Part shown: positions 31,016-37,017 of the stretch, piece by piece | Numbering within the stretch: the first letter of the stretch is position 1 | Layout: each line of letters opens with the position of its first letter | NCBI RefSeq assembly: GCF_020514115.1 | Contig: NZ_VTKZ01000013.1 | Span: 1-46,636, forward strand | Origin: Synechococcus sp. MU1642 | Lineage (GTDB): Bacteria > Cyanobacteriota > Cyanobacteriia > PCC-6307 > Cyanobiaceae | Reading direction: 5' to 3' | DNA length: 46,636 nt | Made by a program: the position numbers and the translations under genes | The notes under the pieces: generated by a model | Told to the model about the DNA's origin: nothing | Seen by the model: the letters and a program-made list of their open reading frames with translations, nothing else | The model's database searches: none

Positions 31016-31588
31016 TCAGGGCTGAGGCGGGATGACGGGCTCAATGGTTTCAAAAAAAGCTTCAGCACCAGGAGGCAGCACCACAGGTTCGGGCTCAGCC
31101 ACCAACACCGGTGAATCACCATCAGGGACAACCACAGCAGGCATGACCTCGCTGGACTCCTCCGGGAGGGCCAAGGACTCGGCGTTGCTGTCATCAAGCT
31201 CGGGGTCGATGGTTTGGGGGTCCGACCAGGCTGGGGCCGTCCACACCGGAGGTTCAGGCGTCTGCACAGCGAGATCTGGTTCGATCGCCTGCTTGACTGA
31301 TGGCTTGGCCGGTCGGCTCGCGGCCTCAGCGGCCTCTAGGGCTGTGACATCCACTTGCAGCTCTGCATCGTTGTCGCTGAACCGGATCCGGATCTCCTGC
31401 AGGGAATCCCCTGGAAACGCGAGCGGTGTGAACGCCTTAGGGGCAAGGTCTTCAGCATTGGTCTGCAGCGTTAGCACCCGGTCGGAGATTCCGTAACCAA
31501 GTCCAAAACAACAACCAGCCACCAGAGGGCCCACCCAAAAACGAGACTGAGTTTCAACGGGAGCGTCAGGGGAGCTGGTTTTGTCCAC
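31016..31588 (-). CDS. single-pass membrane-anchored acidic hypothetical protein
   Basis: No named family recognised. The GTG-initiated, 190-residue protein has one hydrophobic segment at about 17-35 (FWVGPLVAGCCFGLGYGI) followed by a conserved-looking region to about 90 (AFTPLAFPGDSLQEIRIRFS), then an acidic, Pro/Glu/Val-rich tail of low complexity to the end. It is probably anchored by its N-terminus with the acidic tail outside the cytoplasm. Before the island arrived it would have been the next co-directional gene downstream of argJ. The 33-bp argJ-end copy begins 51 nt upstream of its start codon. Confidence 0.65.
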   Translation of the reverse strand: MDKTSSPDAPVETQSRFWVGPLVAGCCFGLGYGISDRVLTLQTNAEDLAPKAFTPLAFPGDSLQEIRIRFSDNDAELQVDVTALEAAEAASRPAKPSVKQAIEPDLAVQTPEPPVWTAPAWSDPQTIDPELDDSNAESLALPEESSEVMPAVVVPDGDSPVLVAEPEPVVLPPGAEAFFETIEPVIPPQP

Positions 31589-31639
31589 GGGTGGGTCTGA
31601 CGAAGAATCGGATTGTGACAGGGATCAAGAACAAAATCT

Positions 31640-31672
31640 TCAAGTGGTGTGGTCGGCATTGATACGCACGTA
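31640..31672 (-). repeat. distal argJ 3'-end copy (candidate att site)
   Basis: Read on the minus strand these 33 bases encode YVRINADHTT followed by TGA, the C-terminus of ArgJ (YVRINADYTT-stop at 35797-35765). 27 of 33 bases match the resident argJ end. Homology stops abruptly at the TAC codon. Read together with the island between the two copies, this is best explained as a direct-repeat attachment site. Confidence 0.8.
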
Positions 31673-31786
31673 ACACCATGCCTCTAGTCATACCAACGGT
31701 TTTAAGCGACTAGCAGAGCTGTTACCCCGGCGTTACCAATCTCGGCATGTTTAGAGATGCCTGAAGGGAACATCCTCGACAAATAA

Positions 31787-32002
31787 GGAATACCAACAGA
31801 CAAAAATGCTTATGCATATCGATACGCCAATAAAGACGAGCATCTAAATTGGGCAGACGAAATACCCAATATCAACAATAAAAAGTCAAAGCTATTGCTA
31901 ACACAAACTATAGATCGCAAGGAAACAGAGGAGAATTACAAAAAGGATGATGATTTGCGTCCAATTAAAGGATTTTTGCTAATGAAGCCAACATTAGACT
32001 AA
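31787..32002 (+). pseudogene. start-less open frame, possible gene remnant
   Basis: A 71-codon plus-strand frame follows a TAA at 31784 and ends at TAA 32000. It has no ATG until its last residues and no evident ribosome-binding site. The translation looks protein-like rather than random, with NAYAYRYANKDEHLNWADE early and DDDLRPIKGFLLMKPTLD at the end. I cannot assign a family. It could be the 3' end of a gene lost during island formation, or chance. Confidence 0.25.
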
Positions 32003-32039
32003 ACTAAATAAGACCATATAGAGGCTTGAGGTTTTTGGT

Positions 32040-32915
32040 TTGACTAAGTTTTCGTCTCTTCCCGATCATATCTCCCTTTTGCTAGGGCGTTTCTCATTTG
32101 TATTCGGCATTTTATTATTTCTTGCTGGGCTAGGCAAAACACTATACAACTTGCCAGATTTCGCAATCAGCGATCTAGCGATGTCGATATTTGGCTTGCT
32201 AGTTGCGACTGTCCTCAGCAGAAAGTCATTTACTGGACTAATGCAAAGACTTTCAACTCCCAAAGGCGAGAGACTATTATTTTTAATTAGTTTGATTGTA
32301 TGTCTTACTATTATTATCACAAAGTTTGTAACTGGCGGATCAGATTTTTACGAGAATTTTTTGGGAGAAAATAGCGTCGTAGAATGGCTTACGGCACTTT
32401 TCTTGTTGTTGTCAGCATATCTTGCCTTGGTTACAGGAGTTTCTAAGGGGTCTCCTTACCCCAAATGGATGCTTTTAGCTTTCGCATCGATCCTCTTCGT
32501 TGCCTTTATGGAAGAATTGGCTTGGGGGCAGATGATGTTTGGGTGGGATACACCTGAAAATTTTCGCTCACTAAACGCACAAGGCGAGACAACTCTCCAC
32601 AACATACATGGCATTCACGATCTTATTAGCCCAGCCTTATTGCTTTTCTCGTCGGCATCAGCTGGTGTTTCTCTGACAAAAAAGAGGCCTAATATTCCAT
32701 GGCTTAAGAACAATCTTTGGGACTTTTCTAAGGGTTTATTCCCTATGTTCTTCCTGGCGGCCATCATATGTGCTGTGGTTGTATTTGTGCCCGGCACGAA
32801 ATTCCTGGGAAGGGTCAATCAAGATATCGAATGGGCTGAATTTCTAATATCATTTTCAATATTTATGCATTCTCTCTCTTTAATTGCCAATCCCCCCAAA
32901 GAGACTAATAATTAA
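32040..32915 (+). CDS. multi-pass membrane protein with EELAWGQ / LHN-H motifs
   Basis: A 291-residue integral membrane protein with about seven or eight hydrophobic segments (near 17-33, 42-60, 78-95, 113-132, 142-158, 195-212, 232-252 and 268-285). Between segments five and six is a polar, conserved-looking block: EELAWGQ at 158-164, FGWDTPENF at 167-175 and NAQGETTLHNIHG at 179-191. Paired Glu plus His residues at a membrane boundary suggest a catalytic or metal-binding site, but I cannot name the family and I assign no function. The start is TTG at 32040 with GAGG eight bases upstream; the next in-frame Met is residue 48. It is AT-rich and lies on the island. Confidence 0.7.
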   Translation: MTKFSSLPDHISLLLGRFSFVFGILLFLAGLGKTLYNLPDFAISDLAMSIFGLLVATVLSRKSFTGLMQRLSTPKGERLLFLISLIVCLTIIITKFVTGGSDFYENFLGENSVVEWLTALFLLLSAYLALVTGVSKGSPYPKWMLLAFASILFVAFMEELAWGQMMFGWDTPENFRSLNAQGETTLHNIHGIHDLISPALLLFSSASAGVSLTKKRPNIPWLKNNLWDFSKGLFPMFFLAAIICAVVVFVPGTKFLGRVNQDIEWAEFLISFSIFMHSLSLIANPPKETNN

Positions 32916-32949
32916 ATCTCAGCAGTTTGTTGCGAGAAGCATTCACTAA

Positions 32950-33344
32950 GAACTTAATTTGCGCTGGAGTCACATCTCCGCGAACAAGACCCTTTCGGCT
33001 GAGAACCAGAAGGTGTGGTGGTGCCTGTTTAAGGTGCCACCTGAAAACACAAAAACCGTGCGTTGGTATGAGGTCTCCGCACCAGTGCTTCGGGACCTGG
33101 AGCGCCTACGTCAAATAACCCGGCCGGAGAAGGAAAGCGACCTCCTCTTCACCAACCAGAGCACCGGAGCACCTTTGAGTAATCGGATCTGGGGAGACGG
33201 ACTCAAGGAAATGCTGGTGGAGTCAGGTCTTGCCACCTGGTCCGACGACGACACAACAACTTCCGAACGATCAAAGTGACCAGCAAGAAGATATTGGCCT
33301 GGCACTCATTTCGCCATTCTTGGATGAGTTTTGATCTGAAATGA
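32950..33344 (+). pseudogene. tyrosine recombinase (phage-type integrase) remnant, frameshifted
   Basis: The frame begins after a stop at 32947 with ELNLRWSHI, the strand that follows the missing Arg I motif of tyrosine recombinases. KVPPENTKTVRWYEVSAPV is the beta-hairpin region with its Lys, and SDLLFTNQSTGAPLSNRIW is typical of the core. Near 33255 the frame shifts by one base: the original frame stops at 33277, but the shifted frame continues to KILAWHSFRHSW, the HxxR box, and stops at 33342. The N-terminal half, Arg I and the catalytic Tyr are absent. It is therefore inactive. It probably once drove, or hitch-hiked with, integration at argJ. Confidence 0.8.
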
Positions 33345-33366
33345 GGCAGCCCCCATCGCGCTGCCT
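33344..33366. repeat. short hairpin after the integrase remnant
   Basis: AGGCAGC at 33344-33350 and GCTGCCT at 33360-33366 are exact inverse complements with a nine-base loop. No T run follows on either strand, so termination is doubtful. Confidence 0.4.
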
Positions 33367-33666
33367 GCTACGACTGCAATACAAACACCCATTAATTAGG
33401 TCCAAAAGAACTAATTCCACTACGACGTGAAGCATGCGACTTTAAATCTTCTTATTAGAAGATTTAAAGTGATCAAAGACAGGAAAATATCAAGTGAACA
33501 GAAGATCAATATAAAGTGCCGGAAATCCATTGTATCCCAAGAAAAAAGTTCATTAGTATTGTGCACTGCAGGGGCTAAAATCAATGCCTTCAAACGAGAG
33601 TTTAATCAAGCAAAGGCAATAAGAGACTTTCCCTTAGAGACCGGGAAACTACTTTGCCAATAGCGA
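33345..33666. other. gene-poor island interior (322 bp)
   Basis: Holds the hairpin at 33344-33366 and the perfect palindrome at 33439-33470. A 78-codon plus-strand frame at 33427-33663 runs through the palindrome; its composition is simple AT-rich sequence, it lacks a ribosome-binding site, and it is probably not a gene. Confidence 0.5.
33439..33470. repeat. perfect 14-bp inverted repeat with four-base loop
   Basis: ACTTTAAATCTTCT at 33439-33452 and AGAAGATTTAAAGT at 33457-33470 are exact inverse complements around TATT. It lies between the integrase remnant and the FkbM-type gene. No T run follows. It could be a recombinase or regulator binding site, or a remnant of a mobile-element end. 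Confidence 0.7.
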
Positions 33667-34383
33667 TCAACCTTGATGTGCTGCCATAATATTTCCACCT
33701 ACTAAAGCTTTCACAACATAACCACATTGTTTTAAAATCTTATATTCATCAGACTCTTTAAAGTTATCCAAGTCAAAACCTTGGCTTACCCATTCCATAC
33801 ATAGCAATTGCGGGAAATCGAGCATGTTTAGAAACTCTCCCAATGAAGAAAGATAATTAACCTGCTCAATATCAATAGTTACAAACTCTGGCCTAAAGTG
33901 CGGATGATTGCGTTTGATCAACACAGCCATCTCGTCAATTCCGAGGCACTTTACGCGAATAATATCTTGAAAAGGAAAATCTCTTTTGAGCCATTCCTTG
34001 GCAACTTCTCTATTGACTGTATTAATAGCACCAGCTTGAAATCTGTAAAAATTTAAATAAAGATCATTGCAAGAAGCATCTTTAATGGCGAAATTGTAAA
34101 AAGTATCAGAAGGTCTACGAGACATCCACATCACTTCTGCATCAGGGTTCGCGTCTACTGCAATTCCCGTCCATCCACACAAACTCAACAGCTTTGTATT
34201 CGAGTAATGAGTTTCATGAAAACATCCAATATCTAGATACTGTGCAGTTTGCATCCTACAAAGCTGCTCCCAAAAAAAGCCCCTTACAAATTCGTCCTCC
34301 CCATTCTGACTAAATCCGATTTTTAAGAACTGTTCATGCAGAATTGATTTATCTATGTGATTATTCAACCAGTTCGGATACAC
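33667..34383 (-). CDS. FkbM-family SAM-dependent methyltransferase
   Basis: A 238-residue class I methyltransferase of the FkbM type, enzymes that O-methylate sugars or polyketides. Visible are the N-terminal FSQNGEDEFVRGFF (SQxGED at 25-30, a family hallmark), SAM-binding YLDIGCFHETHYSNT (YLDIG at 49-53) with GWTGIAVDANP downstream, and FVTIDIEQVNYLSSL (IDIE at 170-173), where family members usually have DIEG. The ATG at 34383 lies 95 nt from the internal argJ-like repeat. AT-rich codon use differs from the flanks. On islands of marine cyanobacteria such genes commonly modify surface polysaccharide; that role here is inference. Confidence 0.85.
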   Translation of the reverse strand: MYPNWLNNHIDKSILHEQFLKIGFSQNGEDEFVRGFFWEQLCRMQTAQYLDIGCFHETHYSNTKLLSLCGWTGIAVDANPDAEVMWMSRRPSDTFYNFAIKDASCNDLYLNFYRFQAGAINTVNREVAKEWLKRDFPFQDIIRVKCLGIDEMAVLIKRNHPHFRPEFVTIDIEQVNYLSSLGEFLNMLDFPQLLCMEWVSQGFDLDNFKESDEYKILKQCGYVVKALVGGNIMAAHQG

Positions 34384-34758
34384 GGCACTTTTGAGGAGAT
34401 TTCTAAATTATCGCATCAATACGACCCTGCCACTTGAGAAACATCCACCACAAAAACCAGTTTAACGGAATCTGACACCAAGTGGTGTAGTCAAATTTGA
34501 TACGCACTCACATTTTGACTAAATACATACCTACTGGTCAAGCTACTACGAATGCAGTCCTAACGAATCTGAACTAGTGAACTAGTACATAGTCATCACA
34601 AAAAGCACTAAGGCTTATCTCAGATACCAGGAATAGGCTTGCTACACTCCGGAACGTCTTCATCTATGACTGAAATCAAACCTTGCGCATACCAAAAAGT
34701 CTAGAACACACTAAAAAATCTGCATGGAAAATACGCAAACTTGCAAACCTGGGTAAAA
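34384..34758. other. gene-poor segment with internal argJ-like repeat (375 bp)
   Basis: AT-rich sequence between the two methyltransferase genes. Its one clear feature is the third argJ-end copy at 34478-34510. I see no gene, terminator or tRNA. Confidence 0.5.
34478..34510 (-). repeat. internal, decayed argJ 3'-end copy
   Basis: 25 of 33 bases match the distal copy at 31640-31672, in the same orientation, including AAGTGGTGTAGTC and TTGATACGCAC on the plus strand. Read on the minus strand it gives VRIKFDYTT and then TGG, so the stop codon is lost and the coding content is degraded. This fits an old attachment site trapped between two insertions. Confidence 0.65.
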
Positions 34759-35388
34759 TTAACTCGGAGCGGATAGATAGGGACCAAAAACTTCTAAGAA
34801 CTCTTTGACCTTAGACACACCCTTTATAGGTTGATAATCAAAGAAAGCAGTCCTATTAACGATCTTGGAAGGTTTCAAAATTTTCTCAATGACATGGTAA
34901 TAGTCCCTATCAATATAATCATCAAAAATTATAGTGCAAGGCTTTGACGCATTTAAGATAACAGCAAGAAATGATGCGACTCTAAATCGTCCATCTATTA
35001 AGACTACATCGGGACTTATTCCATGTAGCTCCATAATTCTCCATGCCATAGCTGGTACTTGAATCATTCGCTTCCCCCTATTCTCATCATAAAGTTGCTT
35101 CTCGAAGCATGGATGTCCCCATTGAGTGGTCTCACCAACATCTTGAAAGACAGGAAAAAATCGATCATTTAAATTGTTTAAAGCAATTTCCATAGACAAT
35201 TTTGACAACCATCTAGCGTCTGTCTCGCATGAATAAATGATATTTTTGTGATTTGCTGTTAACGCCAAAAAGGTACTGCCACCAGAACCATACTCAAGAA
35301 CAACAACTTCTTCCGAAAAAATATCTGTCAGGATTTCTACGACTTCATCCGGAAAAGCAAGCTCAAACATATGCAGCTCAATAATCAT
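34759..35388 (-). CDS. SAM-dependent methyltransferase-like protein
   Basis: A 209-residue class I methyltransferase fold is suggested by VLEYGSGGST (motif I region, EYGSGGST at 32-39), the acidic end of the next strand (IIYSCETDARW), then DVVLIDGRFRVASFLAV and TIIFDDYIDRDYYHVIE. The IDGRFR/FDDY arrangement recalls uncharacterised methyltransferase-like proteins found in cyanobacterial surface-polysaccharide clusters. The ATG at 35388 gives MIIELHMFELAFPDEV; the internal Met7 is an alternative. Substrate unknown. AT-rich like the rest of the island, with a 375-nt gap on each side. Confidence 0.7.
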   Translation of the reverse strand: MIIELHMFELAFPDEVVEILTDIFSEEVVVLEYGSGGSTFLALTANHKNIIYSCETDARWLSKLSMEIALNNLNDRFFPVFQDVGETTQWGHPCFEKQLYDENRGKRMIQVPAMAWRIMELHGISPDVVLIDGRFRVASFLAVILNASKPCTIIFDDYIDRDYYHVIEKILKPSKIVNRTAFFDYQPIKGVSKVKEFLEVFGPYLSAPS

Positions 35389-35764
35389 ACCAACTTTAGC
35401 AGGAAAAGCATGTAAAGCGTCTTCGATGCCCTATCAGAGGTCTCTAGTCTCGCAAAAATAGCTGCATAAGTCCAAAGAACAGGCATCCCTAAAGTCACCA
35501 TAATCATGCAAGTAATTGTTGAATTTCAGAATAAGTATTGCCATTGGAAGCGATGCCCGCTCGCCTTACGATTCGCATGGCATCCTTAAAAAACCAAAAC
35601 TCAACTACGAGAACAAATAAATACGGAAAAGAATGAAAATCTCAACGGACGAAAGCAAGAATGTTTTGTCTTAAGCCAAGAAGAAGCGTCAGAGCACCGT
35701 TAGCAAACTGTTGACAGCAACTACAGCAATCCGCAAAAGCCAGTAATGCCAATGGGATGTTGGA
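35389..35764. other. gene-poor segment between the methyltransferase-like gene and argJ (376 bp)
   Basis: AT-rich sequence downstream of argJ. Only very short frames are present and none has a ribosome-binding site. No terminator for argJ is evident here. The right edge is the argJ end repeat at 35765-35797. Confidence 0.5.
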
Positions 35765-35797
35765 TTAAGTCGTGTAGTCGGCGTTAATGCGCACGTA
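35765..35797 (-). repeat. argJ-proximal attachment-site copy (the functional argJ 3' end)
   Basis: The last ten codons and stop of argJ (YVRINADYTT-TAA). It is the partner of the copies at 31640-31672 and 34478-34510. In an insertion of this kind the element supplies or restores the gene end, so argJ remains intact. Confidence 0.8.
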
Positions 35798-36967
35798 TTG
35801 ATCCGAAAGGTCACATCCCCAGGCCTGACCACAGCCGGAACCATCCCCGAGGCAGAGGCGAATCGGAACATGCTCCTGCCGCAGGATGTCGCTGGCTGCA
35901 GCGCGATCAAAGGCCACGGGTTGACCGGCCGCCATCAATTGATGTGGACCAATCCAAAGAGCAACGGCATCCGGCTCGAAACACACGCCAGAGCGACCTG
36001 CTGCCGCCACGATCCGCCCCCAGTTCGGATCCCGGCCATGGACAGCGGTCTTCACCAAGGACGAACCACAAACCGTGCGCGCCACCTGCAACGCCGCGGC
36101 CTCGTCAATCGCGCCCTCCACCTGCACTTCGATCAAACAGGTGGCCCCTTCACCATCCCGGGCAATGGCCTGGGCGAGCTGCTGCATCGCCTGGGTCAGG
36201 CCCTGTTCCAAAACGGCATGGTGCTCTTGGGCCAGCGGTGGGCCTGCCGCGAAGGCCAGCACGGTGTCGTTGGTGCTGGTGTCTCCATCAACGGTGATGG
36301 CGTTGAAGGAACGCTGCACCGCGCGCTGGACCATCCCCTTCCAGACGGCGGCATCGACACCAGCATCGCAACTGAAGAAGCCGAGCATCGTGGCCATGTC
36401 GGGATGAATCATTCCCGAACCCTTGGCCATCCCTCCAATGCGCACCAGGCGCCCCTCCAGCTCCAGTTCAAGCGCCACTTGCTTGTCCACCAGATCGGTG
36501 GTGAGGATGGCGTTGGCAGCGGCATCACCACCACCGTCATCCAAGGCCTCCACCAAAGGAGCCAAGCCAGACAAAAGGGTCGTCATCGGAATCGGCACAC
36601 CAATCACGCCTGTGGAGCAGATCAACACCAACTCCGCATCGACGCCGAGCTGATCGGCAAGCACCTTGGTGGCGCGCTGACTATCAACCAAACCGCGATC
36701 CCCGGTGCAGGCATTGGCCTGACCGGAGTTGACCAACACAGCACGGGCCTGGCCGCCATGGCTTACGAGGCGATCACGGCAAAGATCAACACAGGCCGCC
36801 CGCACCACTGAGGTAGTGAAGGTGCCCGCACAAACAGACGCCTCCGGTGCCAACACCAGCGCCAGATCAGGCTTACCCGAAGGCTTCAGGCCGGCAATTA
36901 TGCCTGCAGCCTGGAACCCATTCGGTGCCGTCACACCACCCTGGATCGGTTGCCAAGAAGAAGTCAT
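35765..36967 (-). CDS. argJ: bifunctional ornithine acetyltransferase / N-acetylglutamate synthase
   Basis: Transfers acetyl from N-acetylornithine to glutamate in cyclic arginine synthesis, and can also use acetyl-CoA. From the ATG at 36967 the protein has 400 residues. The autocleavage region KGSGMIHPDMATMLGFF is intact; cleavage should fall between Ala192 and Thr193, making Thr193 the N-terminal nucleophile of the beta chain. GGVTAPNGFQAAG is the conserved N-terminal segment and VHGRDPNWGRIVAAAG the C-terminal one. An in-frame start at 37003 would add 12 residues without support. Its last ten codons double as the integration-site repeat of the island. Divergent from coaE by 50 nt. Confidence 0.95.
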   Translation of the reverse strand: MTSSWQPIQGGVTAPNGFQAAGIIAGLKPSGKPDLALVLAPEASVCAGTFTTSVVRAACVDLCRDRLVSHGGQARAVLVNSGQANACTGDRGLVDSQRATKVLADQLGVDAELVLICSTGVIGVPIPMTTLLSGLAPLVEALDDGGGDAAANAILTTDLVDKQVALELELEGRLVRIGGMAKGSGMIHPDMATMLGFFSCDAGVDAAVWKGMVQRAVQRSFNAITVDGDTSTNDTVLAFAAGPPLAQEHHAVLEQGLTQAMQQLAQAIARDGEGATCLIEVQVEGAIDEAAALQVARTVCGSSLVKTAVHGRDPNWGRIVAAAGRSGVCFEPDAVALWIGPHQLMAAGQPVAFDRAAASDILRQEHVPIRLCLGDGSGCGQAWGCDLSDQYVRINADYTT

Positions 36968-37017
36968 CGCCACTGCTGATCTGCCGCGAGACACTGGGTG
37001 CATCCTGCTCCGACACC

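Follow-up and report, generated by a model that had tools for sequence, protein, structure and literature searches.

What lies behind argJ in Synechococcus sp. MU1642, and did it enter through the end of that gene? The stretch of DNA analysed here (46,636 nucleotides, positions 1 to 46,636 of contig NZ_VTKZ01000013.1; hereafter the window) carries an intact argJ, a gene of arginine synthesis encoding 412 amino acids (aa) (35765-37003, minus strand; PF01960 ArgJ, E=4e-141). An initial annotation, made from the letters alone, had noticed, at 31640-31672, a repeat in the same orientation of the 33 bases that close argJ (35765-35797, minus strand), and had read the two copies as the borders of a single island integrated at the argJ 3′ end. 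The repeat is as described (27/33 identical, that is, six differences, with the distal copy translating as YVRINADHTT-stop), and so is the AT-rich character of the ~4.1 kb between the copies (GC content of 0.41 versus 0.62 in argJ). Comparison with other genomes indicates that the 3′ end of argJ is almost certainly an attachment site of integrative elements, as the initial annotation had proposed; the copies, the empty sites in relatives and the spacing of integrases from the copies all support this. The full statement, that the window island represents the decayed remains of two stacked argJ-end elements driven by a type I tyrosine recombinase, has in our judgement a probability of roughly 0.84, and is graded below the attachment site alone because it includes the two-insert history.

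Five relatives (G028, G022, G027, G030 and G033, with argJ 91-96% identical to that of the window) have an empty site. As had been predicted for island-free strains, argJ in these genomes is followed directly, after 52 bp, by the equivalent of the host gene found at 31016-31588 (minus strand) in the window. At 48/52 positions the post-argJ spacer of G028 agrees with the DNA just outside the distal copy of the window, versus 11/52 with the 52 bp that now follow argJ. Because of these matches, the right half of the distal copy (31640-31672, minus strand) is read as the displaced host end, with argJ now ending on element DNA. The adjoining host spacer (31589-31639, minus strand), originally 3′ of argJ, has the same spacing and a similar sequence in the five empty relatives. 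Two genomes with other cargo, G013 and G004, give the same picture: the spacer beyond their distal copies matches at 48/52 and 45/52 positions, and the DNA after argJ at 11 and 12. The initial annotation had taken the distal copy to be either the displaced host end or the donor end; the first holds for its right half, and its left half belongs to the element. Conversely, at the proximal site (35765-35797, minus strand) the left half is host, and on this comparison the present last codons and stop of argJ are supplied by the element. An in-frame stop closes every one of the 19 proximal argJ ends listed at occupied loci. Whenever the two hybrid copies can be distinguished, the switch between host and element probably lies at or near the core AAYGCCGA. 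To the left of this core, on the element side, 24 distal copies share a tAcGT consensus, which would fit a putative integrase binding arm.

Copies of the argJ end recur at many loci. Among the first 99 loci, collected before any integrase-based selection, 12 argJ-end copies (at least 21/26) were found in 0.95 Mb downstream of argJ, and none in 2.38 Mb of upstream and reverse-strand control DNA from the same loci. In a set of 115 loci, 1.21 Mb downstream of argJ contained 31 copies of the argJ-end 26-mer (20/26) in 27 loci, while 20 control 26-mers from inside argJ gave 12 matches in total, and the reverse strand gave none. The latter count covers neither the short loci L001-L031 nor the genome-repeating L033, L053, L063 and L099, and it is not an occupancy rate, because 20 of the 115 loci were chosen for an integrase near argJ. 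Within the window's own genome (2.12 Mb, 22 contigs), a degenerate pattern of the copy with at most three mismatches occurs at three places, all at the island (reversed-pattern control, 0). Across 34 genomes of the genus, the degenerate core motif occurs 32 times, of which 25 are argJ ends (reversed-pattern control, 0). The initial annotation had named wide occurrence away from argJ as fatal to its reading; six of the seven remaining motifs lie downstream of argJ on the argJ contig, and the seventh (G011) adjoins a type I integrase, its contig carrying the far-flank gene as well. A chance repeat was rejected on the locus, 26-mer and genome-motif controls, and a tandem duplication of argJ on the recurrence of only its last 26-33 bp.

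argJ is present in 27 genus genomes. In 11 of these, over 1 kb separates it from the next host gene; 14 carry no insertion and two could not be judged. A recognisable argJ-end copy occurs in seven of the 11 occupied genomes (G000, G001, G004, G008, G013, G015 and G024). Among named strains, RCC307 (L053) is occupied and WH7803 (L035) is empty. As also anticipated by the initial annotation, the cargo between argJ-end copies varies: a PhyH-type gene in G013, a leucine-rich-repeat protein in G004, and a full element with integrase in G008. Eighteen measured islands span 2.2-11.1 kb from argJ to the copy chosen as edge. Separately, in G077 (G077:C1:2496083-2525992) argJ and the usual far flank lie ~30 kb apart, the largest such interval encountered; its far edge bears a type I integrase together with a copy of the argJ end. 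In two Prochlorococcus loci, L080 and L094, the argJ end reads AATAGCGA in place of AAYGCCGA; the downstream copy of L080 carries the same AATAGCGA change and that of L094 nearly so (AATAGCAA), and no related integrase was found beside either copy.

The enzyme that would act at this site was found in G008, where an intact 543-aa tyrosine recombinase lies between two argJ-end copies and faces argJ. The recombinase remnant reported in the window is real: at 32956-33477 (plus strand, reading toward argJ) lies a decayed C-terminal part of a type I integrase, which corresponds to residues 329-500 of the G008 protein at 56% identity and is interrupted by five stops (three TGA, one TAG and one TAA). 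The type I protein matches PF00589 above the cut-off (31.9 bits versus 27.1) and PHROG 1 (E=5e-23). R323, K360, R447 and Y479 are invariant in 15 aligned integrases, and by our own assignment these would be catalytic, giving the Arg and Tyr residues of a tyrosine recombinase. The position of the box-II His is occupied by Tyr in 14/15 of them and by Cys in L163. A structure model of moderate quality (mean predicted local distance difference test score, pLDDT, 67; predicted template-modelling score, pTM, 0.48) retrieved tyrosine recombinases in Foldseek at low template-modelling (TM) scores, the best being Cre (E=4e-05, TM 0.27/0.40). PDB chains named 'Integrase', taken to be lambda Int, were also matched weakly by profile; the two type I members scanned against NCBIfam had no match there.

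Relatives of the type I integrase (E up to 1e-10) were found in 55 of 400 genomes of the family, the 400 being drawn from a larger group with at most three candidates scored per genome. After sorting by hand, 31 of the 55 genomes have a relative at the argJ locus, 25 of them downstream on the argJ contig and six on a contig with the far-flank gene. Among fetched type I and Ib integrases with an intact start, 26/27 have a copy of the argJ end (22-26/26) upstream in the argJ orientation, 105-256 bp from the first aligned integrase residue. In the opposite orientation the best matches reach 15-19/26, and five unrelated integrases have no argJ-end copy, with 15-17/26 in both orientations. A second lineage, type II, is ~24-29% identical to type I. 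In 8/8 cases its gene begins 114-126 bp past an argJ end, once past an internal copy that was sought on account of the spacing; this end is argJ's own in six, an internal copy in L207 and on a contig other than argJ's in L187. L176 has two consecutive type II genes; because of the spacing rule an internal copy was sought there and then found, 115 bp before the second gene, though the locus's own argJ end at 20/26 misses it and it emerges only when all argJ ends are used (21/26). The third copy of L061 is followed, after 116 bp, by the start of a codirectional integrase fragment. The two layouts differ: type I lies at the far edge and reads toward argJ, and type II adjoins argJ and reads away from it. 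In a circular form, both integrase starts would lie near the attachment site of the element (attP). Integrase-profile matches number 39 frames downstream of argJ and none upstream in 0.74 Mb, a count that includes the integrase-preselected loci.

Known integrations in picocyanobacteria are described at tRNA genes (PMC8776855, PMC10872708). This raises the alternative that the integrases truly target a tRNA gene, like those of tycheposons and T7-like cyanophages, and use the argJ end as a secondary site. However, no tRNA gene was found in scans of the window or of seven further stretches, 26/27 type I/Ib integrases have beside them a copy of the argJ end itself, and types I, Ib and II group together in the tree, across a 100/100 branch from four integrases of other sites. 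We rejected the tRNA target on the tRNA scans and regard it as scarcely credible. The same tree allows, without demonstrating, a single origin of argJ targeting.

Several observations count against argJ as the attachment site of these integrases. Of the 55 genomes with a relative, 12 were undecided (G014, G020, G061, G149, G287, G307, G311, G312, G347, G348, G362 and G371) and in 12 the relative is elsewhere or unclear (G007, G057, G122, G159, G162, G191, G195, G228, G280, G331, G379 and G399). In G348, only ~2.3 kb separate argJ from the far flank, and a different contig carries the integrase. In G061, the flank gene lies on the same contig as the integrase, 50 kb away and in the wrong orientation. 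Fragments of the type I C-terminus, 48-57 aa long and 63-77% identical, lie far from argJ in L221, L222, L223 and L224 (G007, G106, G122 and G195); the 6 kb fetched contained neither a tRNA gene nor an argJ-end copy. The search for copies beside integrases used the best of 102 argJ ends, the control orientation being treated identically, and it covered fetched loci (G371 contig 14 at 20096 is among those outside). L152 (G014) has an intact integrase start and no argJ-end copy nearby. The start-less remnants L153, L155 (that of the window), L156, L159 and L161 have no copy within 450 bp, which is expected if the integrase start has been lost. Integrase remnants without an argJ-end copy occur at three loci (L179-L181), copies without a related integrase at several (for example L049, L080, L114 and L115), and 4/11 occupied genus genomes (G002, G007, G019 and G023) have no recognisable copy.

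Genomic islands can be exchanged by homologous recombination, and the island could have entered in this way between its flanks, the repeats being by-products of a tandem duplication of the argJ end. The broken integrase of the window and the four occupied genus genomes with no recognised copy speak for such a route. The copies, however, are only ~26-33 bp long and end at the stop codon, other 26-mers of argJ are rarely duplicated (12 matches over 20 positions versus 31), and the copies are narrowly spaced from integrase starts. We therefore consider entry by homologous recombination very unlikely, and retain site-specific integration at the argJ end.

The window contains a third copy of the argJ end, at 34478-34510 (minus strand), which the initial annotation missed. 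Its view of an insert bounded by argJ ends stands, and its view of one island gives way to that of probably two stacked inserts. This middle copy matches the argJ end at 22/33 and the distal copy at 25/33 positions; among 1,000 dinucleotide shuffles of the island, one equalled the first match and none the second. Outward from argJ the order is segment B, middle copy, segment A, distal copy, host spacer and host gene. Segment A (31673-34477), which contains the integrase remnant, would be the older insert by its position, and segment B (34511-35764), between the argJ end and the middle copy and without an integrase, the younger, if the copies mark two inserts. We are less sure of this two-insert part, since the middle copy on which it rests is weak (22/33), a point against it. 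The argJ-end attachment could also be correct with a single insert, the middle copy being a chance or internal sequence; its modest match to the argJ end and its altered core favour this, whereas the shuffles speak against it, as do the serial copies found also at L061, L166, L171, L172, L176 and G155 contig 7. On balance a single insert seems unlikely, and two stacked inserts remain the preferred history.

Repeats, empty sites, a host spacer moved away from argJ, and an integrase family with narrowly spaced argJ-end copies can be read directly from the sequences; from them we infer a circular intermediate, a crossover position, and the number and order of insertions. The attachment site would be the last ~33 bp of argJ. 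The type I recombinase would join attP of a circular element, a mimic of the argJ 3′ end, to the chromosomal argJ end, with the crossover within or next to AAYGCCGA (codons N-A-D). The body of argJ would be retained, its last codons and stop would be supplied by the element, and the original end with its spacer would be pushed to the far edge of the island. Entry of a second element at the end so restored would then have left the middle copy behind. Small islands in marine and freshwater picocyanobacteria thus appear to insert at the argJ end, bringing a replacement end and keeping the gene intact. Neither segment of the window has a working integrase, and therefore the island is probably fixed, immobile unless helped.

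From the argJ side, segment A carries an open reading frame (ORF) of 238 aa (33667-34383, minus strand), the integrase remnant, and an ORF of 291 aa (32040-32915, plus strand). The 238-aa product is FkbM-methyltransferase-like: in one comparison with the PF05050 protein encoded by the G008 element, it was 24% identical across 184 aligned columns (E=2e-08). Its own Pfam search gave no match. The 291-aa product, a membrane protein by appearance, has no family match and sits at the place where the integrase N-terminus would be expected. The cargo of segment B is an ORF of 209 aa (34759-35388, minus strand), methyltransferase-like by motif reading; its identification as a Sipho_tail or Dit protein was rejected, the matches being below cut-off or weak.

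When the ORFs of the 18 islands were compared, only a serine resolvase, besides the integrase, was common to more than two. This serine resolvase/invertase is present in six islands, of both integrase types (L112, L117, L162, L167, L168 and L169; Pfam was run on three). Other Pfam-matched cargo comprises an FkbM methyltransferase, a sulfotransferase, a Dam-type methylase, an acyltransferase, PhyH, a TPR-CHAT protein, a trypsin-like protease and a T7-type RNA polymerase. The island of G008 encodes a DruA-domain protein (L117:1487-2350; PF14236, E=1.5e-21), for which PADLOC gave no match, and that of G004 a 701-aa BspA-type leucine-rich-repeat protein with DUF5648 (L115:15812-17917), the sole ORF of at least 90 aa between the G004 argJ-end copies. 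The T7-type RNA polymerase (L170:3211-5679, in the argJ island of G144) has 822 aa, aligns with PHROG 414 over nearly its full length and is 27-29% identical to the cyanophage enzymes listed. It may point to a phage satellite, and some argJ elements may be phage satellites. A prophage was rejected as the identity of the islands: a tblastn search of 50,697 phage records, made with the type I integrase alone, gave no match, neither integrase lineage had a confirmed locus among IMG/VR contigs, and Pfam scans of 28 non-integrase ORFs, out of the 94 ORFs of at least 90 aa in the islands, revealed no capsid or terminase. The type I integrase was also absent from the plasmid collection searched, and in a 386-genome sample of the phylum, whose out-of-family share is unstated, its profile matched six genomes, all of this bacterial family.

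Picocyanobacteria rank with the most abundant photosynthetic cells, and their local adaptation is believed to be driven by genomic islands. The described doors for such islands are tRNA genes (PMC10872708, PMC8776855). The conserved arginine-synthesis gene argJ would be another, with an insertion there in 11 of 25 assessable genus genomes. Its end gives a simple rule for spotting islands missed by tRNA-based searches. The system also offers a defined pair of chromosomal site (attB) and attP together with intact integrases, one of them in a named strain (RCC307, L053), so that integration is testable. More tentatively, a distinct class of picocyanobacterial mobile elements, with integrase types I, Ib and II, may have the argJ end as its own reserved site; we consider this less likely than not.

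How do these islands compare with known systems? Restoration of the 3′ end of a protein-coding gene is exemplified by e14 at icd and by elements at guaA, prfC and rpsI. It is also stated in general terms for integrative elements in PMC12884075. The argJ islands resemble such elements in that attP supplies the missing gene end and the target protein stays intact: end copies in the same orientation, an empty site with host flank, an adjoining integrase and a preserved reading frame are all seen, the integrase beside the site being, in the window itself, a remnant only. They differ in target and integrase family, both absent from the literature searched. There, argJ was not found as an attachment site or as an integrase or island target (supplementary tables lay outside this search), and the word argJ has 0 occurrences in the main text of PMC2441476 and PMC12884075. 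Like the tycheposons of Prochlorococcus, the islands occur in picocyanobacteria, carry cargo and have a tyrosine recombinase where they border a conserved gene. Tycheposons, however, are reported to use seven tRNA genes as sites and to span 4-200 kb (PMC10872708). By this comparison of descriptions, the argJ islands differ in using a protein-coding gene, with no tRNA gene in the window, and in spanning 2.2-11.1 kb in the 18 measured, one interval reaching ~30 kb. The T7-like cyanophages P-SSP7 and S-TIP37 likewise have an integrase gene beside an attP that copies a stretch of a host gene (PMC8776855); there the target is tRNA-Leu, unlike argJ, and the type I integrase is unmatched among phage records. 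The integrase is akin to lambda-type tyrosine recombinases by its PF00589 and PHROG 1 matches and by Cre as the best Foldseek match, and departs from them in the two type I members unmatched in NCBIfam and in the Tyr or Cys at the box-II His position. Elements that restore a gene 3′ end are thus a known kind; what would be new, by the literature searched, is argJ as their site and this family of integrases.

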